A stretch of 35,188 nt of DNA from Actinomycetes bacterium (GCA_023336815.1 JAMBLJ010000134.1:1-35188), one strand, 5' to 3'; counted from the first letter of the stretch, positions 4,136 through 29,479 are shown. Numbers and translations are program-made. Notes: a model not told the origin generated them from the sequence alone.

Positions 4136-4409
4136 CGTTCGTCTCCTGGTCGTGCTGATCTTGCCAGTGATACAGGAACATATCGAAGGCGACCAGCCTG
4201 ATCTCCCGGTAATGCTCCTCGAGAAACGTCGGGTCGTTGTAGCGCGGCTTGACCTCGGTGCGGTGACCCTCGTCGCACTCGGGGCATTGCAGCTCCATGA
4301 ACCGTCTTCCCCATGTCGTGTCTGTGATGACCTTTTCGGCATGGTCGTCGGTCAGGTGCGCGTGGAGCTCCCGCCTGGACCCTGAACGCTCGCAATATGG
4401 ACATCTCAT
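4128..4409 (-). CDS. Small zinc-finger-like protein (CPYC...HxxxxxH and CPEC motifs), function unknown
   Basis: Internal start of track ORF 4128..4460: MRCPYCERSGSRRELHAHLTDDHAEKVITDTTWGRRFMELQCPECDEGHRTEVKPRYNDPTFLEEHYREIRLVAFDMFLYHWQDQHDQETNDE. Overlaps neighbours by a few nt on both sides (translational coupling). Confidence 0.7.
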   Translation of the reverse strand: MRCPYCERSGSRRELHAHLTDDHAEKVITDTTWGRRFMELQCPECDEGHRTEVKPRYNDPTFLEEHYREIRLVAFDMFLYHWQDQHDQETNDE

Positions 4410-4870
4410 TCGACCTTCCCAAGGTCCTTCACCGCCACCGTCACGGCTCTTCGAATCCACTCTACGACCGCAGCCCCTGCGGGGGCTACCGAAATCTGGT
4501 CAGCCTCGGGAACCTTCGAGACGAGACCTGCCGAGACGAGGTCAGATACACGTTCATGCAACGTGAGCGAACCGATCTCACACGCATGAGCGAGCTCCGT
4601 CGTCTTCATGTGACCTGGGCCAGACAGCACCACGAGGATCTTGTGGTAGTCCGGGTTGACGGCCATTTGTACCGTGCGCAGTACCGATTCCTGCACCGCC
4701 CGTTCCCGCTCTGAGCGGTCACTGAGAAACTCGGCCTTCCAGTCGCCGGTTCCCGACTCGAGCCTGTTCTCTCTGTCGAGCACGGAGATGTGATATCGCA
4801 GGACCCCTGCGACATCGAGGCCAACGGCACGTGCTGTTGGATCGTCCTCGACCGCACTCTGGATGCGCAC
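4406..4870 (-). CDS. Winged-helix-like small protein, possible regulator or accessory factor
   Basis: VRIQSAVEDDPTARAVGLDVAGVLRYHISVLDREN...HKILVVLSGPGHMKTTELAHACEIGSLTLHERVSDLVSAGLVSKVPEADQISVAPAGAAVVEWI; the HTH-like segment resembles winged-helix proteins. GTG start at 4870 chosen to avoid the upstream CDS; start uncertain. Confidence 0.6.
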   Translation of the reverse strand: MRIQSAVEDDPTARAVGLDVAGVLRYHISVLDRENRLESGTGDWKAEFLSDRSERERAVQESVLRTVQMAVNPDYHKILVVLSGPGHMKTTELAHACEIGSLTLHERVSDLVSAGLVSKVPEADQISVAPAGAAVVEWIRRAVTVAVKDLGKVE

Positions 4871-4889
4871 CGGTGTGGGGAGGGCAGAC

Positions 4890-6983
4890 TCACCCAACGG
4901 GGACCGCTTCCACAGCACGCTCGATCAGTTGAGCGATGTCGACGACTTCGAGTTGCTCTTCGTTGCCTGTCGTCTTGACGGCATCTGAATACATGATCAT
5001 GTCCTTTGGGCATGACACAACGAAGTACCGGACATCGGACCCGAGGGCAACTGCCTCACGTATCCGGTTCTCAGCCGGCCGTTCGTCGAGATCCGAGTCG
5101 TCCATCCATATCCTGCCGCCGCCAGCGCCACAGCAGAAGCTGTTCTCCCTACATCTGCCCATCTCGACCACATCGAGACCGACAGCACGGATCAGCCTTC
5201 TCGGCGCCTCGTACTCGTCCTGGTATCTCCCCAGATAACAGGGGTCGTGATACGTCGCCTGGCCCTCGAACTGGTTGAGCGTGATCTTGCCGCCAGACAC
5301 CAGCTCATCGAGTATGGCCGTGTAGTGCAACACGTCGTCGTCGGTCGGATACTCACCTCGCAGCGTGTTAAGCGAGTGCGGATCAGTTGTGAACATGCGC
5401 TGGTACGAAGCGGTCTCGAACGTTTCGACGTTCGCGTCGCGCAGCATCTCGAAGAGCCCCTCTTCGCCTGCCCTTCGCACATCGTTGCCTGCGTTGCGTT
5501 CCCCGTCGTACAGAATCCCGAAGTCGATGCCGCCGTCATGCATGAGCTTCGCAACGGTGCGCGACACCTCGGTCGCTCTCGGGTCGAACGATCCGTGGTC
5601 GCCAACGAACCAGAGGTAGTCGACCGATTCAGAGCGTGCGTCCTTGATCTTGAAGTCGAGGCCCTTCGTCCACCGGGCACGCTGCTTGGCTGACTTGCCG
5701 AAACTGTTGCCGCCTCGTGCCAGAGCCTGGAACGCCTTCTGGAGGCCAGGCTCGACATCACCGGTATCGACGAGACGTCTGCGGAGCTGGATGATGGTAG
5801 GCACATGTTCGATGCCCACAGGACACGCTTCGACACATGCCATACATGTCGTGCATGCCCACAGGGTGTCCGTTGCGATGACGGTGCCTGCGACCTCGGT
5901 GTCCTCGGCGTGACCCGGCGTGGCACCCGGTCCGTACCACATTTTGATGCCGGATCGAGCATCGGCGTACTCCCGAAGATCCAGGATGAGGTCCCTCGGT
6001 GACAGCGGGGACCCTGACGCCCTGGCTGGGCACACCTCATGGCACCGCCCGCATTTGGTGCAGGCATCGAAGTCGAGCAGGTCCTTCCAGGTGAAGTCCG
6101 CAAGGGTGGAATAGCCAGGAGACGTCGGGTCCTCGACAGGTGGCAGCACCGCAGACGAGCGCGGCTCGGTGAACGCCAGGTTGGCTGCGTCGTTGATAAC
6201 GTGCATACCCTTCGAGTACGGCAGGTACGCGACGAAGGTGAGTGCGGCGAGGCCGTGCACCCACCACGTGATCATGCGAGCGATGTCGTTGCCTTGCTCA
6301 CCGAGAGGCCCTGTGAGCAGGGCGATGACATACCCGCCAATCGAAACCACCTCGAAGTCGGGGTAGTCCGTTGCAGCGATCCGGAACCCTTCGAGGAGGA
6401 AACCCGTGATTCCGAGGAAAACAAGAATCAGCAAGAACGCCCTGTCGTCGAGCGAGTAGCCCTTCCTGTCCGCTTCGACGCCGTCGACTCGTGTGTAGTC
6501 GAGTTTCGGTGGTTCGCTTCTCCTGATCCGTGCAAGCACGATCAGTCCGACGATGAATCCGATACCGAACACATCCATTGCGAACGCGTACCCGACATAG
6601 AACGCGCCGTGCCAGAACTGCCACTCCGGCTTGTCCAGGATGAAGCCGATGATGTCCTCGTCGATGGCGATGATCGTGGTTCCGATGAGGAGCACCATGA
6701 AACCCCAGAACACGAAGAAGTGGGCAACACCGACCACCCTGTTGCGTTTTGCGATCGTCCGGTTCGAGCTGATGTCGCCAAGAGCCCTGATAAACCGTCC
6801 CCAGTTGAGGCGTGCCGATTGCCTCCCGCGTGTGTACTTGCGGATACGCCGGTAGAAGCCCCACAGAAAGATACCGACCGTGACCGTGGTCAGCACATAG
6901 AACAGGATGATGACGGCCGTGTTGAAACCTAAGAAGACCTCACGGCCGGCGGTTTCTGCTGCAAAGAGCATCCCGCCCATCAA
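4890..6983 (-). CDS. emo-like: Membrane Fe-S oxidoreductase: NarI-like TM domain + 2x[4Fe-4S] + CCG domains (EMO-like ETF:quinone oxidoreductase / HdrED-like)
   Basis: N-terminal TM helices; CTKCGRCHEVCP, CTTCMACVEACPVG; CCG motifs THDPCYLGR-type (TYHDPCYLGRYQDEYEAPRR) and ENSFCCGAGGGRIWM; directly downstream of etfBA. Confidence 0.85.
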   Translation of the reverse strand: MMGGMLFAAETAGREVFLGFNTAVIILFYVLTTVTVGIFLWGFYRRIRKYTRGRQSARLNWGRFIRALGDISSNRTIAKRNRVVGVAHFFVFWGFMVLLIGTTIIAIDEDIIGFILDKPEWQFWHGAFYVGYAFAMDVFGIGFIVGLIVLARIRRSEPPKLDYTRVDGVEADRKGYSLDDRAFLLILVFLGITGFLLEGFRIAATDYPDFEVVSIGGYVIALLTGPLGEQGNDIARMITWWVHGLAALTFVAYLPYSKGMHVINDAANLAFTEPRSSAVLPPVEDPTSPGYSTLADFTWKDLLDFDACTKCGRCHEVCPARASGSPLSPRDLILDLREYADARSGIKMWYGPGATPGHAEDTEVAGTVIATDTLWACTTCMACVEACPVGIEHVPTIIQLRRRLVDTGDVEPGLQKAFQALARGGNSFGKSAKQRARWTKGLDFKIKDARSESVDYLWFVGDHGSFDPRATEVSRTVAKLMHDGGIDFGILYDGERNAGNDVRRAGEEGLFEMLRDANVETFETASYQRMFTTDPHSLNTLRGEYPTDDDVLHYTAILDELVSGGKITLNQFEGQATYHDPCYLGRYQDEYEAPRRLIRAVGLDVVEMGRCRENSFCCGAGGGRIWMDDSDLDERPAENRIREAVALGSDVRYFVVSCPKDMIMYSDAVKTTGNEEQLEVVDIAQLIERAVEAVPVG

Positions 6984-7939
6984 CCTTCCAGACGATCCGT
7001 CAGCTCAGGAATGAAGTCGAAGAGATCTCCTGCCCACCCGTAGTGCGCCACACCGAAGATCGGAGCCTGGGGGTCCGAGTTCACTGCGATGATGACAGAC
7101 GAATCTCGCATCCCTTCCAGGTGTTCCGGTGCGCCAGATATGCCAAGAGCGAGATACACCTTCGGTTTGACTGCCAGCCCGGACTTGCCAACCTGGCGTG
7201 TCTTGGGCAACCATCCCTGGTCGATGATCGGCCGCGACGCTGCAAGGGCCGCACCGAGGGCATCGGCAAGTTCCTGTGCCTCCTCGATGTTGTCCTCAGA
7301 TTCGATGCCTCGTCCGATCGCAACGAGGATGTCCTCAGCGGTGATGTCTACATCGCCCGCTTCGGGCTCTGCGATGCCAACGAAGGACACCGCAAGGTCT
7401 GGCACTGTGGCGTCGATGGTCTCCACGGCGCCTGCACCACCAGAGCGGCCGCCGTCTGCCGGGGCTGCGCCTGCGAGCATGGCGAACACTGCGGTGTCGC
7501 CATCGACTCGTACATCTGCCTCGACCTTGCCCGAATACAGCTGGCAGGTTGCGGTGAGAGCGTCGCCTGCGTCGACCTTCAGGCAGTACGACACGAGTGG
7601 CTGGGAGGTGGCGGCAGCAACATGGTTGCCAACATCCATCCCGACAGACGTGTACGGAACCAGGGTCACCCTCGGCTGGCGCGACGTAACGAGTGATGCG
7701 AACATCTCGGCGTGGCCCTGGGGGTTGAAAGCGCCAAGAGCGTCGGTATCAGCGACGAGGATCTGGTCTGCACCACCGAGGCCGCCTGCAAGGCTTGCAG
7801 CGCCCGTTCCGATGACGGCAGCCGTAACGCTGCCCCCTGTCTGGCCTGCCAGTTTCCTTGCTGTTGCGAGCAGTTCGTAGGTTGCGTCTGTTACTTCACC
7901 GTTGAGGTGTTCTACGAATACGAGTACGTCGTTTGACAT
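6980..7939 (-). CDS. etfA: Electron transfer flavoprotein alpha subunit
   Basis: MSNDVLVFVEHLNGEVTDATYELLATARKLAG...; C-terminal FAD region LALGISGAPEHLEGMRDSSVIIAVNSDPQAPIFGVAHYGWAGDLFDFIPELTDRL. Confidence 0.93.
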   Translation of the reverse strand: MSNDVLVFVEHLNGEVTDATYELLATARKLAGQTGGSVTAAVIGTGAASLAGGLGGADQILVADTDALGAFNPQGHAEMFASLVTSRQPRVTLVPYTSVGMDVGNHVAAATSQPLVSYCLKVDAGDALTATCQLYSGKVEADVRVDGDTAVFAMLAGAAPADGGRSGGAGAVETIDATVPDLAVSFVGIAEPEAGDVDITAEDILVAIGRGIESEDNIEEAQELADALGAALAASRPIIDQGWLPKTRQVGKSGLAVKPKVYLALGISGAPEHLEGMRDSSVIIAVNSDPQAPIFGVAHYGWAGDLFDFIPELTDRLEG

Positions 7940-7947
7940 GGCGCCTC

Positions 7948-8706
7948 CTACCTCACACCTGCAGCCTGGAGGAGCTCAAGGACCTTGTCGGCCGCTGCTT
8001 CCTCATCACCTTCGATCATCTCAGCGCCTTCACCTTCGTCGGGAAGCCGCATGTCGGTGATCGTCACGCCCGACATGTTGTCAGGCTGGTCGATGTCGAC
8101 ATCTTCGAGTGCTCCGGACTCCTGTGCCTGACGGATCCTGGCAACCGCCACGTACCGTGGCGCTTCTCGTGCGGTCTGGATTCCGAGGACGGCTGGCAAC
8201 GCCACGTCGTAGTCGGCGGTGATACCCGCCCAGTACTCCTTCGTGACACGGACCGAGCCGTCGCCTGGCGTCGTGCCGACGACGACCGATACATGAGGAA
8301 GCCCGAGGCCAGCAGCAACGAGCATCGCAACCTGGCCATCGATCTCGTCAGACGCCTGCACACCTGAAAGCACGAGGTCGTAGTTGCCTTCGCCAAGAGC
8401 CTCAACGAAAACAGCAGCCTGGCCGTGGGCGTCAACGGGGTCGAGGTCGTCGCCCAGTTTCTTGCCTGCATCGGCACCCTTGGCAATTGCGGTATGGAGC
8501 ATCTGTTCCACTTCGTCTGCCATGCCGAGCGCATACACGGTGACGCTTCCGCCCGTTTCTTCCTTCAGGAGGAGACCTTCTTCGAGTGCGTGGTCGTCGA
8601 ACTCATTGAGCACGTATCCCAGGAAGTCTCTGTCGAGGTCGGCGCCGTCGAGCTCAAGTTCTTCGACCGGGTCGGGCACAGCCCGCAACAACACGGCAAT
8701 GTTCAT
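7948..8706 (-). CDS. etfB: Electron transfer flavoprotein beta subunit
   Basis: MNIAVLLRAVPDPVEELELDG...LNEFDDHALEEGLLLKEETGGSVTVYALG; upstream of etfA in the same operon. Confidence 0.92.
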   Translation of the reverse strand: MNIAVLLRAVPDPVEELELDGADLDRDFLGYVLNEFDDHALEEGLLLKEETGGSVTVYALGMADEVEQMLHTAIAKGADAGKKLGDDLDPVDAHGQAAVFVEALGEGNYDLVLSGVQASDEIDGQVAMLVAAGLGLPHVSVVVGTTPGDGSVRVTKEYWAGITADYDVALPAVLGIQTAREAPRYVAVARIRQAQESGALEDVDIDQPDNMSGVTITDMRLPDEGEGAEMIEGDEEAAADKVLELLQAAGVR

Positions 8707-8722
8707 TCATTCTCCTGTTCGA

Positions 8723-10018
8723 TCAGTCTGTTGGCAGTCCCATGGCCGCAGCCAGAAGCTCTGAAATATCCCTCACCTCGAGGGCACCATCGTTGTTCGT
8801 GGATTTCACTGCATCCTCGAACCGTGACACCTCGTACGGGCACACAACACACAACGTGTCTGCACCAGTCTCCACGGCTTCGATCACACGCTTCTCGGAA
8901 AGGCGCATGGTCTGATGCTCAGCAGCCTTGCCATCGAGCCACATACCGCCGCCACCACCACCACAGCAGTAGCCGTTCTCTTTGTTTCGCCACATCTCGA
9001 CGAACTCCGCACCAGGCAATGCCTCGATGAGATCACGCGGGGCGTCATATTCGCCGTTCTGACGGCCCAGATAACACGGGTCGTGGAACGTCACGGTGCC
9101 GAGCACTTCCTCGGAAAGACCGAGGTCGTCGATGCGATCGGCAAGGAAACGCGAGTAGTGCATCACGTTGTAGGTGCCACCTCGCTGCGGGTACTCGTGC
9201 AGGAAAGCGTTGAAGGCGTGCGGGTCGGTTGTGAGCAGAACATCGAACTCATACTTGTTGAGCGTCTCGATGTTCTGCTCGGCGAGCATCTCGAACAGAC
9301 CTTCTTCCCCTGCGCGTAGCATCGAATCACCATCGTGTCGCTCCTCAGCACCGAGGATCGCGAAGTCGATACCGAGCTTCGTGAGGACCCGCGCAAGACT
9401 GCGCGACGCTTCCATACCTCTCGGGTGATACGACGGGTAGTCGCTGACCCACCACAACACATCCACCTTGCGATCGAGGTCAGCAATGATCGGCACCTCG
9501 ACATCGAGGCCCTTCGTCCATGCAACCCTGCGCTTAGGGTTCTTGCCAAGCGGGTTTCCGTATCGGGCCGTCTTCTCGAAGACATCCTGGAGTTCGGCAG
9601 GTACATGACCTTCAAGGACCGCCTCCTTGCGGGCGGCAGGCATGATCTTGAGCATGTCGACTTCCTTGGGGCACACCCTCAGACAGTTCCCACATGTCGT
9701 GCAGAGCCACAGGTCGTCGCTCTGGAAGAAGTCCATACCGACCTGGAGCTTGCGGAAGATCTTGCGTGGTCCGTAGTCACCTACGTGGTCGACAGGGCAT
9801 ACACCAATGCACTGAGAGCACTGGTAACACCATCCCATCGATTCCCCGCCCGCGAGATCGGTTACCCGATCGAGCTGGGCGACGTCGTAGTCGAAGATGA
9901 CGCGCTGTTCGAACATCCGGTTCCAGTGGCCGGAGATATCGACACCTTCGAGCTCGTACGTCTCGTGCTCCATGACGGCACTCGGGTCGACCTTGGGACT
10001 GACATCTCTACCCATCAC
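8723..10018 (-). CDS. shdrB3-like: HdrD-like fused HdrC/HdrB protein (sHdrB3-type)
   Basis: CSQCIGVCPVDHVG and CTTCGNCLRVCPKEV [4Fe-4S] motifs; CCG motifs FHDPCYLGRQNGEYDAPRDLI and ENGYCCGGGGGGMW. Confidence 0.83.
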   Translation of the reverse strand: MMGRDVSPKVDPSAVMEHETYELEGVDISGHWNRMFEQRVIFDYDVAQLDRVTDLAGGESMGWCYQCSQCIGVCPVDHVGDYGPRKIFRKLQVGMDFFQSDDLWLCTTCGNCLRVCPKEVDMLKIMPAARKEAVLEGHVPAELQDVFEKTARYGNPLGKNPKRRVAWTKGLDVEVPIIADLDRKVDVLWWVSDYPSYHPRGMEASRSLARVLTKLGIDFAILGAEERHDGDSMLRAGEEGLFEMLAEQNIETLNKYEFDVLLTTDPHAFNAFLHEYPQRGGTYNVMHYSRFLADRIDDLGLSEEVLGTVTFHDPCYLGRQNGEYDAPRDLIEALPGAEFVEMWRNKENGYCCGGGGGGMWLDGKAAEHQTMRLSEKRVIEAVETGADTLCVVCPYEVSRFEDAVKSTNNDGALEVRDISELLAAAMGLPTD

Positions 10019-10794
10019 GTCACCTCCGCGACCGCTGGAAACTTGTTCACACCGAGAAGGCGCTTCACCAGATCACCGAGTTCTGGCACGATCCTGTTGA
10101 ACTCTTGAGTCATACGCATACGCAACGTTGTGTACATGTACACCGAGTACACCGCGGCGAGGAACACGTCCGTGCCAAATACGCCATGGCCTTCCGGTCT
10201 GAAACCTGCCTGTTCTCCGACGCCGTCGAGGAACGTCAGCGCCAGGTTGATCCGCCGGTACGTCTCAGAGACGGTTTCCCCATCGAGATCCACCTCCTCC
10301 ATCACGACGAGGGGCAACGCCCCGGTGCCGGTTACCGGGTTCCACATCCATCGTGTCCACAACCAGTAGCTTTCGGGATAGGTGAAATGGAGGATCTCGG
10401 AACCGAGATCGTGACCGGTGCCTTCGGGAACATCCCGTCCAATGCCGTCGATGAGTTCGGCGAACTCCTGGAGCCTGTCGCCGGGGCTCATGTCCGCGTA
10501 GAGCAAACCCCGCACCGCTCGGCGGAAGCCATCGAGGGTCAGGGACGTGAGGATGATGTTGGCTTTCCTCCTCGCCGAGAACACCGACTTGAGGACGGCG
10601 ATGACCGCCTCTTCACCGATGTCCATGACCCGCTCCTCAGCGAACGCATCGAAGAACATCGCTGACTTACGTTCGAGGCGGGCGGCCACATCGCCAAGAT
10701 CATGCTCGGACACCTTCTCGAGCGCCATGCGCGTGAACTCCTGCGCGGTGGGCGTGTCGATGACCTGCCCGTTGAGGACCGGATCCGGCTTCAC
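10015..10794 (-). CDS. Conserved hypothetical in sHdr cluster (sHdrH-like by position)
   Basis: MKPDPVLNGQVIDTPTAQEFTRMALEKVSEHDLGDVAARLERKS...; sits between HdrA-like and HdrB3-like genes with 4-nt overlaps. Assignment is positional. Confidence 0.65.
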   Translation of the reverse strand: MKPDPVLNGQVIDTPTAQEFTRMALEKVSEHDLGDVAARLERKSAMFFDAFAEERVMDIGEEAVIAVLKSVFSARRKANIILTSLTLDGFRRAVRGLLYADMSPGDRLQEFAELIDGIGRDVPEGTGHDLGSEILHFTYPESYWLWTRWMWNPVTGTGALPLVVMEEVDLDGETVSETYRRINLALTFLDGVGEQAGFRPEGHGVFGTDVFLAAVYSVYMYTTLRMRMTQEFNRIVPELGDLVKRLLGVNKFPAVAEVT

Positions 10795-11855
10795 ACCGGC
10801 ACCCCCGCAGAGCGGATAAGTGAGACAGCTTTCGCAGCGGCAGCTCCCGCAGAAGCGATCGAGTCGTCGAGATCTGCAGGGCCGACAGCGGCACCTGCAG
10901 CGAAGATGCCTGGCACTGTTGTGGTGACCGTATCGAGGATGTCATGTGCCGTCTCGACGAAACCGTACTTGTTCGTCGGCAGGTTGAGGATGCCTGACAT
11001 GGCCGTGGTGCCCTCGCTCGGCTCCATACCGACCGCCAGGATGACGACATCCATCTCGACCTCCATAGGTCTGCCCATCGTGGTGTCCTCTCCTCGCACA
11101 ACGAGGCGACCACCCTTCGGCAGGATCTCGGTGATAATCCCTTTGATGTAGTTGACCTTGTGTTCTTCCTGGGCGGGCCAGTAGATCTCGTTCTCCCAGT
11201 ACCCGTACATGCGCATGTCGATGTAGAAGATGAACACCCGTGCGTCCGGCACCATCTGACGGATCTCTATGGCTTGCTTTGAGGAGATACCACAGCACAC
11301 CTTCGAGCAGTACTCGTTGCCGATCTGACGATCCCGCGAGCCAACACACTGGATGAAGGCAACCCGCTCAGGCGTTTTTCCCGTCGATGGCGTGACGAAG
11401 CTGCCGGACTTGATCATCTTCTCAGCGTCAGCGATCGTGACAACGTCAGGCAGTTCGTAATATTGGTACTGCTGAGTCTCACGCCCCGGATCGAAGTGCT
11501 GGAAACCGGTTGCAAGGATGATCGCGCCGGCGTCGACCGATTCTGATGAACCGTTCGCCGCGAGTCCAACCGTGAACGCACCGGCTTCCCCATCAACAGC
11601 CGTGACCTCGGTGCCCGTCCGGATATCGATGAGATCATTGCTGGTAACAGCGTCGATCATCTCCGCCATCGCTTCAGATGCATCACGAAAGTGATGGGTG
11701 AGTGCGGCATAGTCCGCGTGGATGGGCATCCCGCCAGGAACATCTTTTTTCTCGATCAGCGTCACAGGACTCCCGAGTTCGGCAGCCAACCTGGCTGCCT
11801 CCAACCCGGTCGGCCCCGCGCCGATCACCACCACTCGATTACTAGGCATCCGCAT
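10791..11855 (-). CDS. shdrA-like: HdrA-like FAD/Fe-S oxidoreductase subunit (sHdrA)
   Basis: VVVIGAGPTGLEAARLAAELGSPVTLIEK (FAD-binding); FIQCVGSRDRQIGNEYCSKVCCGISSKQAIEI HdrA cysteine motif. Confidence 0.88.
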   Translation of the reverse strand: MRMPSNRVVVIGAGPTGLEAARLAAELGSPVTLIEKKDVPGGMPIHADYAALTHHFRDASEAMAEMIDAVTSNDLIDIRTGTEVTAVDGEAGAFTVGLAANGSSESVDAGAIILATGFQHFDPGRETQQYQYYELPDVVTIADAEKMIKSGSFVTPSTGKTPERVAFIQCVGSRDRQIGNEYCSKVCCGISSKQAIEIRQMVPDARVFIFYIDMRMYGYWENEIYWPAQEEHKVNYIKGIITEILPKGGRLVVRGEDTTMGRPMEVEMDVVILAVGMEPSEGTTAMSGILNLPTNKYGFVETAHDILDTVTTTVPGIFAAGAAVGPADLDDSIASAGAAAAKAVSLIRSAGVPV

Positions 11856-13041
11856 CCTCCCAACTCAGGTACTCGATCTCTCCACGCTCGAGACGACCAA
11901 GATCGACCTCGAATTCGGCCCACGCTGCCTCCCAGTCGATACCCATCTTCTCAAGCAGCGCCGTGTAGTCGGTAGCGTGCCAGTGCAGCTGGGCGATCCG
12001 GTACGGGTGTGCTCCCATTGCCAGTGCAGCGAACTGGGCATCAGAGAGCACTGGCACGCCAACGTTACGCTGATGCGCCTTGGCTGCGAACTGGCTCTTG
12101 TCGAGGGTCGTGACACAGCCCGTATCATGGGTGATCACAACGTCGGGGTTCGCCTCTTCTTTCATGACCTCAATCTTGCGTTGCGTTGCGAAGGATCGGG
12201 AGAAGTCTCTTTGGACAAGGATGTGCCTGAACCCGAACCCACAACAGTCGAAGAACGTGCTGTAGTCCCCGACGGTCGAACCAAGAGATTCAACGATGCC
12301 TGTAACGGTTGCGGTTCGCTGGCCGCCGTAGATGTCCGGGTCGTAGATGGCGTCCTCGGTGACGAGCTTGTAGTAATGACATGCGGGATGGATCGAAGCC
12401 GTGATCGACGAGAAGTCCCTCACCTGACGTTCGGCGATCCGGTCACGCATTGCGTGGATCCATTCGGAGTAGTGCACGATCTCTTCCGGCATCACGAGCG
12501 GCTTGTTAAGTTTGCCCATGATGTCGCGCACCTTGTGCCGCAGTTCCTCGTGGTGGACGATCTCGTGGCGGGTCTCTTTGTAGTGACCGTACGATGTGCC
12601 GCAGTGGATCATCGGGAAATAACCCGTGGCATACGCAGCAGCGAAGTTCCTCGATGCAACACCAGCCTGGGCAACAGCGTTGGATGTTGCAGAGGCGTAG
12701 TAGTTCCACGCGGTACATGACGTCTGGTCTGTGGGATCCATGTAGCTCATGCCGAACTGGCGGTTGAGCCAGAAGATGGATGTCGAGTAGCCGGGGATGT
12801 GACCACACTGTCCACAGGACTTGTGATGCCACGTCATCTGCTCAGGGATCTTCTTCGTCCGCCCGTACTTCGTCATCACCTCGATGTAGGGCTCAGGGAC
12901 ACGCTGGACGATCAGCTCGCCGGCATCTTCGAGTGCGAAGAGCTGTTCACGGATGTCTTCAGTTGGTGCCTTTGCAGGATCCGGAACGGGGGGTTTCCGG
13001 ATCTCGGACAGCGGGATGAACGTGTTGTCTGTGGTCGTCAC
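11842..13041 (-). CDS. shdrB1-like: HdrB-like subunit (sHdrB1)
   Basis: CCG-type motifs: HKSCGQCGHIPGY, IHPACHYYKLVTED, FFDCCGFGFRH, THDTGCVTTLDKSQF. Confidence 0.83.
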   Translation of the reverse strand: MTTTDNTFIPLSEIRKPPVPDPAKAPTEDIREQLFALEDAGELIVQRVPEPYIEVMTKYGRTKKIPEQMTWHHKSCGQCGHIPGYSTSIFWLNRQFGMSYMDPTDQTSCTAWNYYASATSNAVAQAGVASRNFAAAYATGYFPMIHCGTSYGHYKETRHEIVHHEELRHKVRDIMGKLNKPLVMPEEIVHYSEWIHAMRDRIAERQVRDFSSITASIHPACHYYKLVTEDAIYDPDIYGGQRTATVTGIVESLGSTVGDYSTFFDCCGFGFRHILVQRDFSRSFATQRKIEVMKEEANPDVVITHDTGCVTTLDKSQFAAKAHQRNVGVPVLSDAQFAALAMGAHPYRIAQLHWHATDYTALLEKMGIDWEAAWAEFEVDLGRLERGEIEYLSWEDADA

Positions 13042-13096
13042 GGTTTCTCTCTTCCCTGAGGTATTGCGATCGCTACTTTGTGTTGGGAACGCATCG

Positions 13097-13831
13097 CTAC
13101 ACCTCGTAGCCTGCGTCTTCGAGCGTTTCTTCCATCACATCGAGGATGATCATGTGCAGACCCTCGTCTGCTTGCTCAATCATGTCCATCACGTCTGAGT
13201 GCAGCCAGATGAGGTAGAGCTCGATCAACGTCTCGTCCGAGACCTGCCAGCTCATCTCCGTCGTGTGGAGCGTCTCTGGCGGGAGTGCCCTGCGCCACAG
13301 CTCGAGGTTGTCGGAGGTCTTCTCGACATCAGGACCCCAGTCGGGGAAGGCGTCAGGCTGGAGCATGTCGGGCGATATCTGGGTGCCTGTTGTCATGATC
13401 TTGTAGACGACTCGTCCGTAGCCCTCGAGGGCGTCCTTGGCAGTGGTGAGACCGTTGCGGACTGCGACCTCACGCAACAGCGTGATCAGCCCACCTGGTG
13501 AGTTCTGCCTCGGGCAACGGTTGCACGAGAAACACTGCGAGCAGTTCCATACGTCGTCGTTCATCTGCTCGAAGACGAGTTCAACATCCTCACGCGCGGC
13601 GGCTTGTGCGATCTTGCGCGGAGAGAAATCGTAGAAACGCGCCGAAGGGCAGGCAGCAACGCAGATGCCACATTCGTAACATCCGTACATGTAGTCGGGG
13701 AACCGAGCATCTGCCTTGACCTCCTCCCACAACGCGAGTTTGTCCTCGTAGGGGACGTCCGCGTAGCTGCCATGGGCGATGCCACCACCAGGTAGTGCGG
13801 TAAATTGAGAAGGTGGCGACGTGACCGTCAT
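13097..13831 (-). CDS. shdrC1-like: HdrC-like [4Fe-4S] subunit (sHdrC1)
   Basis: Internal start of track ORF: MTVTSPPSQFTALPGGG...YMYGCYECGICVAACPSARFYDFSPRKIAQ...WNCSQCFSCNRCPRQN. Confidence 0.85.
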   Translation of the reverse strand: MTVTSPPSQFTALPGGGIAHGSYADVPYEDKLALWEEVKADARFPDYMYGCYECGICVAACPSARFYDFSPRKIAQAAAREDVELVFEQMNDDVWNCSQCFSCNRCPRQNSPGGLITLLREVAVRNGLTTAKDALEGYGRVVYKIMTTGTQISPDMLQPDAFPDWGPDVEKTSDNLELWRRALPPETLHTTEMSWQVSDETLIELYLIWLHSDVMDMIEQADEGLHMIILDVMEETLEDAGYEV

Positions 13832-14211
13832 CAGAAACTGATCACTGCATCGGCCTCGGCTGCCATGTCGTTGAAGGCGGCCCCACCGATCATCTGGACA
13901 TCGTCGAGGAGTTGCTCGATCTCGAGATCGTTGAGGTCGAGCGATGGCTGGCACACGAGGAGATTCACGCCACTGTCTATGGCGAGGTCGATGAAACTCG
14001 ATAGGGGTGCTCCACCATCCTTGACGGTCAGGCCCTGGCTGTCCTTGCGCAGCAATGTTGGACCGTGCATCGTGAAGTAGATTGAAACGTCCATATCCAT
14101 GGCCGCTGCGGCCGTTGCGAGATAGAACGGTGTCGCAGCCTTCGATGGCTCATCGATGCCATGTGTCTGAACGTACAGAATCCTCGGGTCGTCTTCCACT
14201 CCCACCTCCAT
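13831..14211 (-). CDS. DsrE-family protein
   Basis: MEVGVEDDPRILYVQTHGIDEPSKAATPFYLATAAAAMDMDVSIYFTMHGPTLLRKDSQGL...VNLLVCQPSLDLNDLEIEQLLDDVQMIGGAAFNDMAAEADAVISF; DsrE fold signature, conserved Cys. Confidence 0.82.
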   Translation of the reverse strand: MEVGVEDDPRILYVQTHGIDEPSKAATPFYLATAAAAMDMDVSIYFTMHGPTLLRKDSQGLTVKDGGAPLSSFIDLAIDSGVNLLVCQPSLDLNDLEIEQLLDDVQMIGGAAFNDMAAEADAVISF

Positions 14212-14240
14212 GTCCTCGTAACCAGCTGACTCGATACGGG

Positions 14241-14798
14241 CTAGATGAACAGGGCCAGATCCGCCTCCGATGCGAAATCGAGAAAGGCTGCAGCGCCGAG
14301 ACACGTCGCCTGGGGCATGATGTCTTCCTGTTTCACGTTCATGACACCCATGGTCGTCGCACATGCGTAGAACTCGACGTCACCATCGAGGCACATCTCC
14401 ATCATGGAGTCGAAGTCAGGGATCTTGGAATCTTCCATCCATCCGCGCATCATCTTGGTCGCAACGGTGGTCATGCCTGGCAACATGCTGATGATGTTGG
14501 GGACACCCATCTCTTTGCCCTTGAGCGGCGGTGGTGCTGCTGCGTTGCCGAGCGGAGAGACCTTGAGGTCATGCATCCGCTTCGTGTTGACCATGTCGAG
14601 TCCATAGAACGTACAGAAGATGCCAACTTCCCAGTCGAGGGCGGCGGCCGTGCTGGCCATGATCAAGATGGGATACACCTCATCGAGACCACCTTTGGAG
14701 GCAACCAGTGCCATCCGCTTCCGCTGTGGTTCATCGGTCGTTTGGGCCACCTCGCCATCGTCGGTGACGGTGAATGGTTTCTCTCCTACGGTTGCCAT
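14241..14798 (-). CDS. dsrE3A-like: DsrE3A-like sulfur-transfer protein
   Basis: KRMALVASKGGLDEVYPILIMASTAAALDWEVGIFCTFYGLDMVN...VEFYACATTMGVMNVKQEDIM...ATCLGAAAFLDFASEADLALFI. Confidence 0.83.
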   Translation of the reverse strand: MATVGEKPFTVTDDGEVAQTTDEPQRKRMALVASKGGLDEVYPILIMASTAAALDWEVGIFCTFYGLDMVNTKRMHDLKVSPLGNAAAPPPLKGKEMGVPNIISMLPGMTTVATKMMRGWMEDSKIPDFDSMMEMCLDGDVEFYACATTMGVMNVKQEDIMPQATCLGAAAFLDFASEADLALFI

Positions 14799-22432: not shown

Positions 22433-24124
22433 TCAGCCTGATTCCTGGACCCGGCGGATGTAGACGATCACGTCCTCGACCTGCTGTTCGGTGAGGACAC
22501 CCGGCATAGGCGGCATCGTGCCTATGCCTGCGAATACGACGGCTCCTATGAGCGTGTCTGACATCTCCTCAGAATCGGTTCCCGGTCCAAGCGCGGGACC
22601 GAAGATGCCCTCGAGACTCTCACCGTGGCACTGTGCACAGGCAGCGTCATACATCTGGAGCCCGGAAAGACCATTGTTCGCCTCCGCAGTCCAGGTCTCA
22701 GGGAGCGCTGGAGGTGATGGCTTGGAAAGAGATACATAGATGAAGAGAACTGAAACCGCCACGAGGACGAACGCGATCCTGAATTCCCATTTCGAGTGAC
22801 CGACCTTCGGAACGAATCCCTTGCCGCTCTTCTCTCGCTTGGCAATTCGTCGTCGCATCACAGACCGGCTGATGAAGAACACAGCGATCGGTAGCACGAT
22901 CGCGAGGAACTGAAGCATCCTGACCATGGAGTTCACCGAGATGTCAAGCCACACCGCGATCACATCATCTCCGCCGGCAACGAAAAGCACGCCGAAGAAC
23001 GCGATCGCAGCCAAACCGATCGAGGTTCGCGTTGGGCGCTCACTCGGCCGATCAAGCAGATGATGGATCTCATGGTCACCGGTCTTCCATGCCTCGAGCC
23101 ACGGCCAGGCATACAGCACGACGAACACTCCACCGGCCAGTACCAGAGACGGGTAAAAGGGGTTCGGTATTTCGAACGGTGCGAACCGCAGTTCCCATGC
23201 CGGCATGAGACGCAGTGCACCTTCAAGCCAGCCGACGTACCAGTCCGGCTGTGACGCAGAACTGACATCGGCCACCCGGAACGGACCGAACATCCAGATC
23301 GGATTGATCTGAATCAGTCCTCCCATACCTGCGAGGACCGCGCCTGTGAGGAAGAAGACACCAACGGCTTTCATCGCGTAAGTTGGCCAGAGTCGAAGAC
23401 CCGTGATCGTGTTCTCGGTCTTGTCCCTACCAGGGAACTGAGTGTGCTTCTGACGTACGAGAATCGCCATGTGTGCAGCGAGTAGAAGTGCGATCAACGT
23501 CGGGACGATCATCACATGAAGAACGAAGAGCCGCGACAGAATGTCAGCACCCGGGAACTCACCCCCGAGGAGTAGAGAAGACAGCCATGGGCCGATGAGA
23601 GGTATCGAGATGATGATCGAGTACCCGATCCGCAGACCGGTGCCCGATAGCTGATCGTCGATCATCGAGTAGCCGGTGAATCCATTGACCATCGCGAGGA
23701 TCAGAAGCGTTACGCCGACCGCCCAGTTCATCTCACGAGGTTTCCTGAAAGCCCCTGTGAAGAAGGTGCGCAAAAGATGGGTCACCATTGCAGCGGCGAA
23801 GATAAGCGCCGCCCAATGATGGACCTGTCTGATGACCAGACCCGACCGCACTGAGAACGAGATGTCGAGCGCGGAGGCATACGCGCGCGACATCTCGACA
23901 CCCTGGAGCGGGACATAGCTGCCCGCATACAGGACCTCTTGCTGGCTCGCATCGAAGAACAAGGTGAGGTATACGCCTGTGCCGACGAGGATAATGAACG
24001 TATACAGGATCACTTCACCGAGGAGGAACGACCAGTGATCCGGGAAGACCTTGTTCAGAACCTCCCTCGTCATACGCGCCGTGCCAAGACGCTCGTCGAC
24101 TCCTCTTATTATTCCGCGCATCAT
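22433..24124 (-). CDS. qcrB-like: Cytochrome b subunit of bc-type complex with fused C-terminal cytochrome c domain
   Basis: QVHHWAALIFAAAMVTHLLRTFFTGAFRKPREMNW; GYSMIDDQLSGTGLRIGYSI; PEWELRFAPFEIP-like segment; C-terminal YDAACAQCHGESLEGIFGPALG (CXXCH). Confidence 0.9.
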   Translation of the reverse strand: MMRGIIRGVDERLGTARMTREVLNKVFPDHWSFLLGEVILYTFIILVGTGVYLTLFFDASQQEVLYAGSYVPLQGVEMSRAYASALDISFSVRSGLVIRQVHHWAALIFAAAMVTHLLRTFFTGAFRKPREMNWAVGVTLLILAMVNGFTGYSMIDDQLSGTGLRIGYSIIISIPLIGPWLSSLLLGGEFPGADILSRLFVLHVMIVPTLIALLLAAHMAILVRQKHTQFPGRDKTENTITGLRLWPTYAMKAVGVFFLTGAVLAGMGGLIQINPIWMFGPFRVADVSSASQPDWYVGWLEGALRLMPAWELRFAPFEIPNPFYPSLVLAGGVFVVLYAWPWLEAWKTGDHEIHHLLDRPSERPTRTSIGLAAIAFFGVLFVAGGDDVIAVWLDISVNSMVRMLQFLAIVLPIAVFFISRSVMRRRIAKREKSGKGFVPKVGHSKWEFRIAFVLVAVSVLFIYVSLSKPSPPALPETWTAEANNGLSGLQMYDAACAQCHGESLEGIFGPALGPGTDSEEMSDTLIGAVVFAGIGTMPPMPGVLTEQQVEDVIVYIRRVQESG

Positions 24125-24987
24125 GTGTTGTTCGTCCTATCCCAGTATCCAGGACCTACCGGTTCGGGGTAGTCGGCCTGTGCCACCACGAATCCCTCGG
24201 AATCGATCGCGATCGGGAGTTGCGGGAGCGCCCTCGTGGCTGGACCAAAGCTCGGCCGGCAACCGTCGTTCACATCAAACGTGGATTGATGACAGGGACA
24301 CAGCAGCAGTCCCGTGACGTTCTGGTACAGACCTACACCACATGCAGCGTGTGTGCAGATCTTCGAGTACGCCACCATCCCTTCGGCTACCCAGTCCTCG
24401 CGTCCGCCGATCGGGATGAAGTTGTCCTCGTTGAAGCGGATCAAGAGCGTCGGCGAGTCGGCAGCGCGCGTATGGCCTTCGGGGAAGGCGGTAACGAGCT
24501 CTCCGACACCAAGTTGATCGCTCTTGATCGGGGAACCATCCACCGTGACGAGACGGACACCTTCAGCGAAGTCGGTCTCTCGCAGATCCTGCGATGGGTG
24601 AGGGCCGAGCGAACGGATCGGGAACAGGAGTGCTCCGCCAAGCGCTGCGAGGGCGCCAACGAGAAGCCGCAATACGGTGCGACGCTCTCCTGCGAGTTCT
24701 TCCTCCTCGTCTGAGCCGGTGCGGAAGAAGTCGGACCTGGCCGCGGCCATCTCGGCATCCGAGCTTGCGAGGGTATGGCGGTCTTCTACCGTTTCTTCGT
24801 TTGGCAGATACTTCTTCGTGCCTGTGATGATCCCTACACCGAGACCAGCCAGGGCGTAGAACCAGAGTAGTCCCTCGAGCTGCGGCTGGCCTCCGGTGCT
24901 GTAGACGACGAGCAAGCCAAGCCCTGAAACGATCGACACGATGAACGAGATCTGCGGTGCCTTCGATCTACGCACGACGGTCTCCAA
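24121..24987 (-). CDS. qcrA-like: Rieske [2Fe-2S] subunit (QcrA-like, 3 predicted TM)
   Basis: KICTHAACGVGLYQNVTGLLLCPCHQSTFDVNDGCRPSFGPATRALPQLPI; CTH...CPCH Rieske motifs. Confidence 0.93.
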   Translation of the reverse strand: METVVRRSKAPQISFIVSIVSGLGLLVVYSTGGQPQLEGLLWFYALAGLGVGIITGTKKYLPNEETVEDRHTLASSDAEMAAARSDFFRTGSDEEEELAGERRTVLRLLVGALAALGGALLFPIRSLGPHPSQDLRETDFAEGVRLVTVDGSPIKSDQLGVGELVTAFPEGHTRAADSPTLLIRFNEDNFIPIGGREDWVAEGMVAYSKICTHAACGVGLYQNVTGLLLCPCHQSTFDVNDGCRPSFGPATRALPQLPIAIDSEGFVVAQADYPEPVGPGYWDRTNNT

Positions 24988-25504
24988 TCCACATCAGCCC
25001 GAGCACGATGGCGCTCATGCCGACCGCCCACGCAACGAATCCTTCCACCACTGGCCCGACACGGCCGATGGGCGCACCGCCAGGATCATCTGGATTCTGG
25101 AGATACAGCGTGTAGGTCACGATCTGTTCCAGTTCCTCGTCCGAAATGCTTTGGGGTCCAAAGAACGGCATCTCTCCAGGACCCCCCCGAATCGCCGCAG
25201 CGATCTCAAGCGACGAGAAACCTGTGATCGGGGGCACGTTTCCCCGGAAACTGAGCGCACCGCCAAGACCGGTCGCAGCGTGGCAGGCCGAACATTCGGA
25301 TCGGTACAGCTCGCCGCCGATAGAGAGATCGTTGCGAGGGACAATCGGTTCCTCGAACGGCTCCGGCTCGGTGGACTCGACACCTTCACTTTCGGTGTTC
25401 CCCTCCGTTGCGAGAGCTGGCACCGCAACAAGAAGAACGACCACCAAGAACATCAATGCGGTGACGTAGCGGGTGGGGCGATGGTGATCACCTTCGGCTG
25501 ACAT
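24968..25504 (-). CDS. qcrC-like: Monoheme cytochrome c subunit (QcrC-like)
   Basis: LYRSECSACHAATGLGGALSFRGNVPPI; C-terminal TM helix; SD AGGAGGT. Confidence 0.87.
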   Translation of the reverse strand: MSAEGDHHRPTRYVTALMFLVVVLLVAVPALATEGNTESEGVESTEPEPFEEPIVPRNDLSIGGELYRSECSACHAATGLGGALSFRGNVPPITGFSSLEIAAAIRGGPGEMPFFGPQSISDEELEQIVTYTLYLQNPDDPGGAPIGRVGPVVEGFVAWAVGMSAIVLGLMWIGDRRA

Positions 25505-25550
25505 CACACCTCCTGTTCAAGCGTTTCATGCTGTCAGATCGTGTTCGATA

Positions 25551-25579
25551 ATTCTATAGTAGCTCACTGAGGAACTCAA
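25551..25579 (-). promoter_or_regulatory. Candidate sigma70-type promoter for the qcr-like operon: TTGAGT-17-TAGAAT
   Basis: Minus strand TTGAGT TCCTCAGTGAGCTACTA TAGAAT, about 50 nt upstream of the start codon. Confidence 0.5.
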
Positions 25580-25731
25580 CATTAGCTTCTCGATGGACGC
25601 GAGGCGAACGGCAAGTCAACGGCCACAACACATAGTTGCACTATTTCGAGTTGCCGAATTCCTTAGTAACGATGTAAACTTCTCGATGAAGCGGAATTAT
25701 TTTCCTCATCCACGATGGAGACGGAGGCGAA

Positions 25732-27870
25732 ATGGCAACCAGACTGCGCAGGATCACGTTCACCGGACCACTCTCCGTGGCGCTCCTCGCCATCCTCGTG
25801 ATGAGTCCGGCGCTTGGACAAACCAACACCAAACCGATCGCCGACATCACAGCTACACCGTCGTCGGGCGACGTTGGATCATTCATCTTCTTCGATGCAA
25901 CCGCATCGCGCGATGCCGATGGAACCATTGCCACGTACGTGTGGGACTTCGGCGACGGATCCCCGGTCGTGACAGTAAACGCGCTTGAAGCTGAGCAGAT
26001 ATATCACAGCTTCGGGACATCCGGCACCTACACCGTCAGCTTGATCGTGACCGACGACCAGGGCCTGGAGAGTGATCCTGCTGGCGCCTCGTCGAGCCTC
26101 TCTGTCTCCATTGGTGTTCCACCGACACCAACAACAACCACCCCACCGACCGTCAGCGGATCCTCGCTATTTGCAAGCACGTGTGCTGCGTGTCACACGA
26201 AGGCGAACCTCTCCGGTCGCGGTCTCAGCAGCGCCCAACTCGTCACCATCATGTCGAGCGGCGCAATGAAGAGCCAGGCATCGAGCCTCAACGCAACACA
26301 GATCAAAGCCGTCGCCGACTACATCTCACCCGGTGGCGCCACGCCGCCGACACCTGCCACGACAACAACAACGACACCTGCTGGAACCAACCCACCGACC
26401 GCCAGCGGATCTTCGTTGTTCGCAAGCAGCTGTGCTGCGTGTCATACGAAGGCGAACCTCTCCGGTCGCGGTCTCAGCAGCGCCCAGCTCGTCACCATCA
26501 TGTCGAGCGGCGCAATGAAGAGCCAGGCATCGAGCCTCAACGCAACACAGATCAAAGCCGTGGCGCGCTACCTCACTCCCGCATCGAGCGGTGGGACCAA
26601 CCCCACAACCACGACGACCACACCCGGTGCTGCTGCAAGCGGGAGTTCGGTGTACACAGCGAAGTGTGCTGCGTGCCACGGAAGTACCGGCGAAGGAGGT
26701 GTTGGCCCGTCACTCAGAACATCGACGTGGAGCAAGTCCGCAACGCTCGATGCGGTGGCCAACGGTGTTGGTTCGATGCCTGGGTTCTCAAGCGCTTTGA
26801 GCAGTGCGGAAGTCGATGCGGTGTCGAGCTACTCCGTGCGCCTTCAGTCGGCTACAACAACAGCCCCGACTGATTCGCCGCAGAACGTCGAAGGAAGCGA
26901 CATCTACACGTCCGAGTGCGCGGCGTGTCACGGCGCCTCGGGTGAGGGCGGTACCGGCTACGGACCGTCACTACGTACCTCATTCATGTCGCTAGCCCAA
27001 ACGACGAGTGCTATCACGAACGGCATAGGTGGAATGCCTTCATTCGATACCAAGCTGGACGAGAGCCAGATCGCATCCGTTGCGTCCTTCTCGGTTGCAT
27101 TCCAGACAGCAGAGCCACTCCCCGAGCCCGAAGTCGAGGTTCCAGGAGATGGATCTGAGGCCGCTGTTGCATACGATGCGAACTGTGCGGCATGTCACGG
27201 AGCGCAAGGCGAAGGCGGTATCGGACCATCACTTCAGACCTCGACGGCGGGGGTCGACGCCACCATCGGCGCGATCGCCCACGGCGTCGGCACCATGCCC
27301 GGGTTCTCTGCCGGACTCACTGAAGAGATGATCGCGGCACTCGCTGAGTACAGCGTTGGGTTCCAGAGTGGACAGCCAGGAGAGCCTGCCGAGACAGGAA
27401 CGACAGGGTCGGCGGGTGCGGTAACGGCCGAGGGTGCCCAGTTGTTCGCATCGAACTGTGCCATCTGCCACGGCGCGACGGGTGAAGGCGCCTCGGCTGC
27501 GCCGATCAACGTACCCTTCGCCAACGAGCAACTCGTAGAGATCATCCAGGTCGGCATCGCCGACATGCCCGGATTCGCATCAGCCCTCTCGGACGAACAA
27601 ATCGTCGTTCTTGCTGACTACGTCCACGCACTCGCGGCGGAAGCGGCGCCAACGACCACCGTTGCGGCGTCGGGAAACGAGTACATCGTGGCCATCCAGC
27701 CGAGTAAGTACGTCGAGTTCGACACGGATCGGACCTCGGTTCCTCTCGATGCGAACGCGAGAGTCGGTCTGGCACTCGCTTCGATCGCTTTGCTCGGAGC
27801 CATCGCCTACTGGCAGGTGCAGGAGGCCAAGGATCCCAACGACGTGGCTCCCGACGGCGCAGGTGACTAG
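25732..27870 (+). CDS. Cell-surface multi-domain cytochrome c: PKD-like domain, six CXXCH cytochrome c domains, C-terminal TM anchor
   Basis: PIADITATPSSGDVGSFIFFDATASRDADGTIATYVWDFGDG (PKD); CAACHTKANL x2, CAACHGSTG, CAACHGASG, CAACHGAQG, CAICHGATG; C-terminal VGLALASIALLGAIAYWQV; SD GGAGG. Confidence 0.92.
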   Translation: MATRLRRITFTGPLSVALLAILVMSPALGQTNTKPIADITATPSSGDVGSFIFFDATASRDADGTIATYVWDFGDGSPVVTVNALEAEQIYHSFGTSGTYTVSLIVTDDQGLESDPAGASSSLSVSIGVPPTPTTTTPPTVSGSSLFASTCAACHTKANLSGRGLSSAQLVTIMSSGAMKSQASSLNATQIKAVADYISPGGATPPTPATTTTTTPAGTNPPTASGSSLFASSCAACHTKANLSGRGLSSAQLVTIMSSGAMKSQASSLNATQIKAVARYLTPASSGGTNPTTTTTTPGAAASGSSVYTAKCAACHGSTGEGGVGPSLRTSTWSKSATLDAVANGVGSMPGFSSALSSAEVDAVSSYSVRLQSATTTAPTDSPQNVEGSDIYTSECAACHGASGEGGTGYGPSLRTSFMSLAQTTSAITNGIGGMPSFDTKLDESQIASVASFSVAFQTAEPLPEPEVEVPGDGSEAAVAYDANCAACHGAQGEGGIGPSLQTSTAGVDATIGAIAHGVGTMPGFSAGLTEEMIAALAEYSVGFQSGQPGEPAETGTTGSAGAVTAEGAQLFASNCAICHGATGEGASAAPINVPFANEQLVEIIQVGIADMPGFASALSDEQIVVLADYVHALAAEAAPTTTVAASGNEYIVAIQPSKYVEFDTDRTSVPLDANARVGLALASIALLGAIAYWQVQEAKDPNDVAPDGAGD
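26182..26561 (+). repeat. Tandem intragenic duplication: 131-bp units at 26182-26312 and 26431-26561
   Basis: Units differ at 2 positions (C/T and A/G, both synonymous); period 249 bp = 83 codons. Confidence 0.9.
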
Positions 27871-27905
27871 TGCTGCGGTGACGGGAACGAAGGTCAGAAA
27901 CCGAT

Positions 27906-27934
27906 TTGACATAGTTAGTTAGTAAGTATCTAAT
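27906..27934 (+). promoter_or_regulatory. Strong sigma70-type promoter TTGACA-17-TCTAAT
   Basis: TTGACA TAGTTAGTTAGTAAGTA TCTAAT immediately upstream of the second multi-cytochrome gene; spacer rich in TTAG repeats. Confidence 0.7.
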
Positions 27935-27964
27935 GATTAGCTAAGGGATGGAAAGGTGGAGAAG

Positions 27965-29479
27965 ATGAACAGACGGATTTCGGTACCAACGATCGTATCC
28001 GTACTGGCAGCGATGATCGTGGTGTACGGGGCCGTGTCAGGACTCGCCGCCGTTACGTCGACTCAGCCGCCGGCTCCGCCCTCCGCTGTCACTCCCCAAG
28101 CGATCACCACGGGCGTAGCCGCAGCACAGGCAACGACGCCTATTGCAAATGATGACTCCTACTCCGTGGCGCTCGGTGCCACGTTGACGGTTTCCGCTCC
28201 AGGTGTCCTCGCAAACGACGTGAACGCATCCCAGGCCATACCGCTAACCGCTCCCTCCAAGGGTTCGCTCACCCTCTTGCGCACCGGTCGCTTCGTCTAC
28301 GACCCGCAGGGGGCAACAGGAACGGTGACGTTCTCGTACAAGGCAAGCAATGGCTCAGCAATGTCCAACAACGCCGCCGTGACGATCACGATCTCTGGCG
28401 GCCCGGGAACCACTGCGGTCAACGCCCCCGGCTCGAACGGTGCTGCCCTCTACTCGGCGTCCTGCGCTGCGTGCCACGGGGCGGATGGCAACTCGATCGC
28501 GAAGGCGCCGCTCGGCCCCACGGGTCTCTCGAACGCACAACTCGTCAACGTTCTGTCCCCTGGCGGCAAGATGAGTTCGTACACATCAGCAATGTCCACG
28601 GCTGACATTCAGGCGGTTGCGGACTACGTCGGAACACTTGGTGTTTCAACACCAACACCAACACCAACCGTGCCGCCCGTGGTTACGACTCCGCCACCGC
28701 CCACAACCGCAACACCGAGCGCAGCAGCAACGCTGTTCGCCAACACGTGCGCCGGATGTCACTCGCAGTCCAACCTCGCAAGTCGAGGCATCTCCAACGC
28801 CAACCTCGTCGCCATCATGACTACGGGAGCGATGAAGACCCAGGCGGCGAACCTGAGCCCGTCCGATATCACAGCGGTTGCCGCCTTCATCAACGGACCA
28901 ACCCAAGGACCAACGACACCACAGGGAACACCTGCATCGGTGGCTCCCACCACCGGTGCATCGGCGTACGTCGCATTCTGCGGAGCCTGCCATGGTGCTA
29001 ACGGATCAGGTACGGCGCTCGGCCCCGACATCGTCGGCGAGAGCAGGTCGGAGATCATTGATGTCGTGAGGAAGGGCGACGGTACGATGCCGGCCTTCTC
29101 AGCGGCGGCGCTCAGCGACAAACTTCTTGCAGATCTCGCGACCTACATGGAAACATTCACATCGTCTGGCGGATCCGGCGACGATGATGGCCATGGAGCG
29201 ACCGTTGGCAGCGGAGATGGGCCGTCCGTGTACACGTCGTTCTGTGCAGCATGCCATGGACCGAACGGGCGGGGTACGTCGCTTGGCCCTGACATCGTGG
29301 GCGAAGAGTCTTCTGAGATCTTCAAGGTTGTGAGAAAGGGTGACGGCACGATGCCAGCCTTCTCCTTCCAGACCCTCAGCGACAAGCAGCTTGCGGCTCT
29401 TGCGGACTACATCGGATCGTGGAGCTCAAGCGATGACGACCACGACAAGGGTGATTCCAAGGACGAGGACGACCACTGA
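27965..29479 (+). CDS. Cell-surface multi-domain cytochrome c: signal/TM, cadherin/VCBS-like domain, four CXXCH domains, acidic His-containing tail
   Basis: PIANDDSYSVALGATLTVSAPGVLANDVNASQAIPLTAPSKGSLTLLRTGRFVYDPQGATGTVTFSYKASNG; CAACHGADG, CAGCHSQSN, CGACHGANG, CAACHGPNG; tail SSSDDDHDKGDSKDEDDH. Confidence 0.92.
   Translation: MNRRISVPTIVSVLAAMIVVYGAVSGLAAVTSTQPPAPPSAVTPQAITTGVAAAQATTPIANDDSYSVALGATLTVSAPGVLANDVNASQAIPLTAPSKGSLTLLRTGRFVYDPQGATGTVTFSYKASNGSAMSNNAAVTITISGGPGTTAVNAPGSNGAALYSASCAACHGADGNSIAKAPLGPTGLSNAQLVNVLSPGGKMSSYTSAMSTADIQAVADYVGTLGVSTPTPTPTVPPVVTTPPPPTTATPSAAATLFANTCAGCHSQSNLASRGISNANLVAIMTTGAMKTQAANLSPSDITAVAAFINGPTQGPTTPQGTPASVAPTTGASAYVAFCGACHGANGSGTALGPDIVGESRSEIIDVVRKGDGTMPAFSAAALSDKLLADLATYMETFTSSGGSGDDDGHGATVGSGDGPSVYTSFCAACHGPNGRGTSLGPDIVGEESSEIFKVVRKGDGTMPAFSFQTLSDKQLAALADYIGSWSSSDDDHDKGDSKDEDDH

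Follow-up and report, generated by a model that had tools for sequence, protein, structure and literature searches.

Two adjacent genes on a contig of an uncultured actinobacterium encode secreted strings of separate monoheme cytochrome c domains ("beads"), six in Cyc6 and four in Cyc4, and stand beside a bcc complex whose QcrC has lost D1, one of its two heme domains. At a probability of about 0.6, the two strings take the place of D1 and form a tethered, extensible relay that leads out of this altered complex. The window, meaning the whole 35,188-nt stretch of DNA analysed, is one entire contig (C134) of a draft MAG (genome G000), the assembly of which amounts to 3.0 Mb in 299 contigs and is 94% complete.

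Cyc6 (25732..27870, plus strand; 712 residues) is built of a signal peptide-like N-terminus, a PKD domain, six monoheme class-I beads and a C-terminal transmembrane anchor. The PKD domain, at residues about 32-130, scores 69.8 bits against PF18911 (cut-off 27), and its model matches the PKD-like domains of collagenases in the PDB with TM-scores of 0.77-0.81 over the target. It is followed by six separate Cytochrome_CBB3 stretches (PF13442; 269.8 bits summed), with CXXCH motifs at residues 151, 234, 312, 396, 485 and 576, at intervals of 83, 78, 84, 89 and 91 residues. Since the anchor (residues about 674-700, its hydrophobic helix at about 674-692) is at the C-terminus, bead 6 is the closest to the membrane and the PKD domain is outermost. 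Cyc4 (27956..29479, plus strand; 507 residues) contains a signal peptide, a Big_9/Cadherin_4 domain at residues 61-145 (42.4 and 28.1 bits, each above its cut-off), four beads, each a PF13442 stretch, with CXXCH at residues 170, 265, 342 and 430 (intervals of 95, 77 and 88 residues), and an acidic D/H-rich tail, and lacks a C-terminal anchor. Similar tails end the Cyc4 homologues (window 29407-29479; L183:4894-6084), are very long in G343, and could possibly bind metal or mineral. The sequence-only reading had described two neighbouring proteins with six and four monoheme domains, PKD or cadherin-like folds and a single C-terminal anchor, all of which the domain search bears out; the domain length of ~80-90 residues that it gave needs correcting for beads 1 and 2 of Cyc6, which are of a short type (~56 residues) and are 95% identical to each other in protein and 92% in DNA.

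The number of motifs is far above chance: shuffled proteins contained a mean of 0.0045 (Cyc6) and 0 (Cyc4) CXXCH, against the six and four observed, and the window has 18 occurrences of the coding pattern for the motif, where 3.4 would be expected. Each bead has a downstream Met at the sixth-ligand position, as in class-I cytochromes c; its offset is about +36 to +39 for beads of the long type and about +28 for those of the short type. No complete bead among the strings of the five genomes with a D2-only QcrC described below lacks this residue. The hemes that the beads would carry are likely, judging from these motifs, to be of the His/Met type. Such ligation is usual for high-potential carriers, whereas bis-His hemes are usual in mineral-reducing multihemes.

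AlphaFold models of Cyc6 (mean pLDDT 70, pTM 0.27) show confident beads, mostly at pLDDT 75-93, and those of Cyc4 (mean pLDDT 59, pTM 0.26) show beads without a reliable arrangement. Structure prediction, suggested earlier as a source of heme spacings, thus reproduced the beads but yielded no fixed arrangement of them, and fixed inter-heme distances were dropped because neither model places the beads dependably relative to one another. The flexible Pro/Thr linkers proposed between separate beads reappear in the Cyc6 model as predicted disordered segments of 27, 18, 9, 14, 19 and 35 residues. If each linker residue adds 0.36 nm and each bead 3 nm, the reach of a fully stretched Cyc6 has an upper bound of about 66 nm; cell walls are a few tens of nm thick. 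Electron transfer along such a chain would rely on collisions between tethered beads, with no rigid wire.

The adjacent operon, in the order qcrC-qcrA-qcrB-like, is on the minus strand and divergent from Cyc6, from which it is separated by an intergenic region (25508..25731) where promoter-like sites are no commoner than in shuffles. The QcrB-like cytochrome b (22433..24124) scores 594.8 bits against NF050120 (cut-off 500), which places it among the actinobacterial-type QcrB proteins, and it has an extra C-terminal cytochrome c domain, with CXXCH at residue 496, that is missing in all other QcrB examined outside this group. The QcrA-like Rieske protein (24121..24987) has three hydrophobic helices and scores 244.2 bits against NF050121 (cut-off 275). 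The QcrC-like protein (24968..25507), a cytochrome c with a C-terminal transmembrane segment, reaches 114.1 bits against NF050122 (cut-off 200) and aligns to positions 131-252 of the model only, its second half. Instead of two heme domains it has a single CXXCH and corresponds to D2 of the diheme actinobacterial QcrC, without D1: local alignments against four canonical QcrC proteins score 194-230 to D2 and 46-72 to D1. The description of this neighbour as a divergent bc-type complex with two more CXXCH was therefore right about the motifs, one in the QcrC-like and one in the QcrB-like protein, but too simple as to "divergent", the complex being of the QcrCAB type with D1 lost and a QcrB fusion gained. 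The possibility that the extra QcrB domain is a relocated D1 was rejected, its scores against D1 and D2 being similar. In the solved complex, D1 protrudes and D2 packs on QcrA and QcrB (PMC8616580). The diheme QcrC head is described as the connection between complexes III and IV of actinobacteria, tying bcc to the oxidase in bacteria that are without soluble cytochrome c (PMC8361435).

Linkage was assessed in 396 genomes of the class, of which 85 have QcrB matches at E <= 1e-100. The whole QcrB-cytochrome c fusion was matched in only four of the 396 (G000, G002, G038 and G343); the QcrB of a further genome, G154, is 78% identical and ends at a contig edge, and the accompanying QcrC is likewise monoheme. 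A one-heme QcrC is found in five of five loci, four complete and one truncated, and each of these has a PKD-heme-string gene in divergent orientation, the heme counts being 6, 5, 3, 2 and at least 2. Neither such a gene nor an ORF with at least three CXXCH was found in the 12 normal bcc loci used for comparison (10-20 kb of sequence each), several of which adjoin ctaC, ctaD or ctaE. The tie between string and bc complex that had been supposed from the window is therefore kept throughout loci of this type; these five, from three families of shared ancestry, are a small sample and point to an association, not to a proof. Homologues of Cyc4 of the Big_9 type come next in G002 and G343. The same locus type is present in a near relative of the same genus (L069, matching contig C416 of G002), a MAG from sample Dive96, the source of which is an active black-smoker chimney of the Southwest Indian Ridge (PMC9769843).

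In a tree of beads, the membrane-proximal ones of G000, of both G002 copies and of G038 cluster together (support 97/89), and several outer beads pair within genomes, as expected of lineage-specific duplicates. Because the proximal beads are orthologous, the outer ones form within-genome pairs and beads 1 and 2 of Cyc6 are nearly identical, the string appears to lengthen by duplication at its outer end. Proximal beads are more acidic than outer beads in most homologues. The conserved proximal bead is missing from the G343 string, and is therefore dispensable to the design.

Strings were detected in 17 of 80 relatives at E <= 1e-20, some having 9-11 hemes, up to 1264 residues and several PKD domains. 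Several adjoin other quinol-oxidising modules, either b6/subunit IV or NrfD with ferredoxin, and others are distant from any quinol-oxidising gene. At the set cut-offs, matches were confined to the window's own order in a smaller draw of genomes and to its own genome among 199 genomes of the phylum, and plasmid records gave just generic ccoP-like matches. The architecture is undescribed in the literature searched, a scope outside which most subscription journals fall.

Several variants of the design were observed in relatives. In members of the same order, cytochrome b subunit IV is fused to strings of seven or three beads at L042:9577-11784, L044:11422-13521, L050:3423-5528 and L051:10818-12149 (those of L042 and L051 checked with Pfam). 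Giant cytochromes encoded at L043:6058-9852 and L042:5024-8509 combine several PKD domains with eight or nine class-I beads and a C-terminal anchor, and carry an additional N-terminal CXXCH without a nearby Met. A Big_9 protein with 11 CXXCH (L046:5757-8765), which ends at a contig edge, contains class-I beads together with two stretches of doubled CXXCH, apparently of another heme type. By the ccm genes and D2-only locus of G038 are a NapC/NirT-type membrane protein with six CXXCH and a small tetraheme protein (L041:872-2488 and 3836-4414). A ccmF gene adjoins a string in G038 and G052; the 679-aa product with 14 transmembrane segments near the G038 string, read at one point as an oxidase, is CcmF.

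The earlier remark that no terminal oxidase is visible in the window is correct, and the search beyond it located three COX1 homologues on other contigs of the assembly, two strong and one divergent. Every D2-only genome has at least one strong COX1. The CtaC encoded on C202 retains the CuA motif, the subunit II of G343 is of the caa3 type and includes a cytochrome domain, and in G154 a fragment with a cytochrome domain is ahead of COX1 at a contig edge. The genome also encodes cytochrome c assembly genes, a nitrate-reductase-like beta subunit and further small cytochromes c. On contig C54 (L062, 7199-16671) there is a divergent cbb3-like oxidase, in which a CcoO-like cytochrome domain is joined to subunit I, standing opposite a split b6/subunit IV/Rieske set, and on C164 (L063, 10064-12744) an NrfD/DsrP-like membrane protein is followed by a membrane-bound monoheme cytochrome in a quinol-linked unit. 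The window itself contains, at 493-14798 on the minus strand, an sHdr-like sulfur oxidation cluster, in an actinobacterium. It comprises a lipoate ligase, two GcvH-like lipoate-binding proteins, HdrB/HdrC/HdrA-like proteins, EtfAB, DsrE-like proteins, two CCG Fe-S proteins (one of them membrane-bound) and an Fe-S/NrfD fusion. This cluster would plausibly supply quinone with electrons, upstream of the bcc complex.

We propose that electrons exit an altered menaquinol:cytochrome c oxidoreductase by way of Cyc6 and Cyc4. In the ordinary bcc complex of actinobacteria, D2 rests on the complex, D1 projects from it, and electrons pass through the diheme head to a docked aa3 oxidase; in the altered one, D1 is lost, a cytochrome domain is fused to QcrB, and an anchored Cyc6 and a secreted Cyc4 are encoded divergently. 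Loss of D1 together with the QcrB fusion thus gives a concrete reason for the strings. The most likely course is that electrons go from D2, or from the cytochrome domain of QcrB, to the acidic, membrane-proximal bead of Cyc6; they would then pass between colliding beads, as the flexible linkers permit, outward to the PKD tip and Cyc4, the string acting as a D1 substitute that could reach acceptors undocked from the complex. Against such a relay, several relatives have strings far from quinol-oxidising genes, the fused QcrB domain has no specific likeness to D1 or D2, and the other small cytochromes c of the genome could carry the same electrons.

Where the electrons would end up is a separate matter. 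A reach past the membrane is favoured by growth at the outer end, by modules of the surface type and by a Cyc4 without anchor, and an acceptor in or beyond the wall comes near to an even chance. His/Met-type hemes and oxidases elsewhere in the genome make delivery to an oxidase fit equally well, the strong COX1 of all D2-only genomes keeps that route in play, and a membrane oxidase as the acceptor is a tentative but serious candidate. The strings may then be a membrane-side shuttle or electron buffer between the D2-only bcc complex and aa3/caa3 oxidases of the same membrane, nothing leaving the cell. We hold this alternative to be possible, somewhat short of even odds: the two strong oxidases among three of the heme-copper type, the CuA motif of CtaC, the cytochrome domains found with oxidase genes in G343 and G154, and hemes that all look His/Met agree with it, and oxidase delivery is the normal task of the diheme head; however, the oxidase genes are away from the strings, unlike in many canonical loci, and a lateral shuttle would manage with a single bead instead of as many as ten and without a PKD/cadherin-type tip, nor would it call for expansion at the outer end. 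Those same features, an N-terminal PKD tip opposite a C-terminal anchor, a secreted Cyc4 with Big_9 domain and acidic tail, and duplication of outer beads, suit the conduit proposed in the sequence-only reading, which would cross the presumed monoderm wall and end at an acceptor that is insoluble or outside the cell. The stretched length, at most about 66 nm, exceeds the wall, the locus type recurs in the black-smoker MAG from Dive96 (PMC9769843), and compact NapC-type and tetraheme proteins adjoin the string in G038; yet the hemes are apparently not the bis-His ones usual in mineral reducers, and no terminal reductase or outer conduit protein was identified, so that we regard the wall conduit, too, as a tentative option below an even chance.

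Flow in the opposite direction, from an outside donor such as ferrous iron, a sulfide mineral or a partner cell to an oxidase, or in reverse through bcc, would agree with the vent-chimney relative, with hemes of the high-potential type and with the lithotrophic sulfur-oxidation-like cluster on the same contig. The bcc complex normally runs forward, though, and the sHdr-like cluster would feed quinone from inside, making an outside donor superfluous; we consider inward flow improbable. That the bead number is assembly or pseudogene noise around a generic cytochrome c, as a draft MAG in 299 contigs and the 92% DNA identity of beads 1 and 2 might suggest, is largely refuted by intact ORFs, Pfam-level beads throughout and a design shared by several other genomes, and has a very slim chance. 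The most far-reaching form of the relay model, in which loss of D1 uncouples bcc from its obligate oxidase and electrons are sent over the wall through monoheme strings of variable length, is rather doubtful. If true, an energy-conserving complex would be feeding a Gram-positive electron conduit that is modular and grows outward. The locus is in any case a natural one in which half of the QcrC head is missing and detachable, length-variable heme strings lie alongside, and it allows a test of whether a Gram-positive cell can move bcc electrons off the membrane, by what means, and where they go once supercomplex coupling is lost.

Regarding known systems, the closest is the actinobacterial QcrCAB complex with the obligate III2IV2 supercomplex of M. 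smegmatis, M. tuberculosis and C. glutamicum (PDB 6hwh, 7e1v, 7q21), with which the window shares a QcrB above cut-off, a QcrA-like Rieske protein, a D2 with C-terminal transmembrane segment and the qcrC-qcrA-qcrB order. It differs from it in a QcrC without D1, a QcrB with a cytochrome c domain, no ctaE upstream and the divergent heme strings. The menaquinol:cytochrome c reductase of Bacillus has a subunit IV-cytochrome c fusion and likewise bears a cytochrome c domain at the C-terminal end of its cytochrome b subunit, but here the fusion partner is a full-length actinobacterial QcrB, and a separate D2-type QcrC is present as well. Tandem Cytochrome_CBB3 domains also occur in CcoP of cbb3 oxidase, whose model TIGR00782 is the best in NCBIfam for the heme string; the score, 147.6 bits, is nevertheless below the cut-off of 179.95, Cyc6 has six beads and a PKD domain, and the window contains no ccoN or ccoO. 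GSU1996 of Geobacter is a dodecaheme string whose domains each have three hemes, mostly bis-His and packed as a wire (PMC10138318). Like Cyc6 and Cyc4, this proposed wire is a single chain of repeated cytochrome domains joined by linkers, whereas the beads described here have one CXXCH each and a Met at the ligand position, as monoheme His/Met-type domains rather than triheme c7-type ones, and they are joined by disordered linkers of some length and accompanied by a surface module and, in Cyc6, a membrane anchor. In Thermincola and Carboxydothermus, cell-wall multihemes have been proposed as an electron path through the monoderm wall (PMC7829351). These are differently built and no sequence relation to them is claimed; the likeness is in the proposed path of c-type hemes over the wall.
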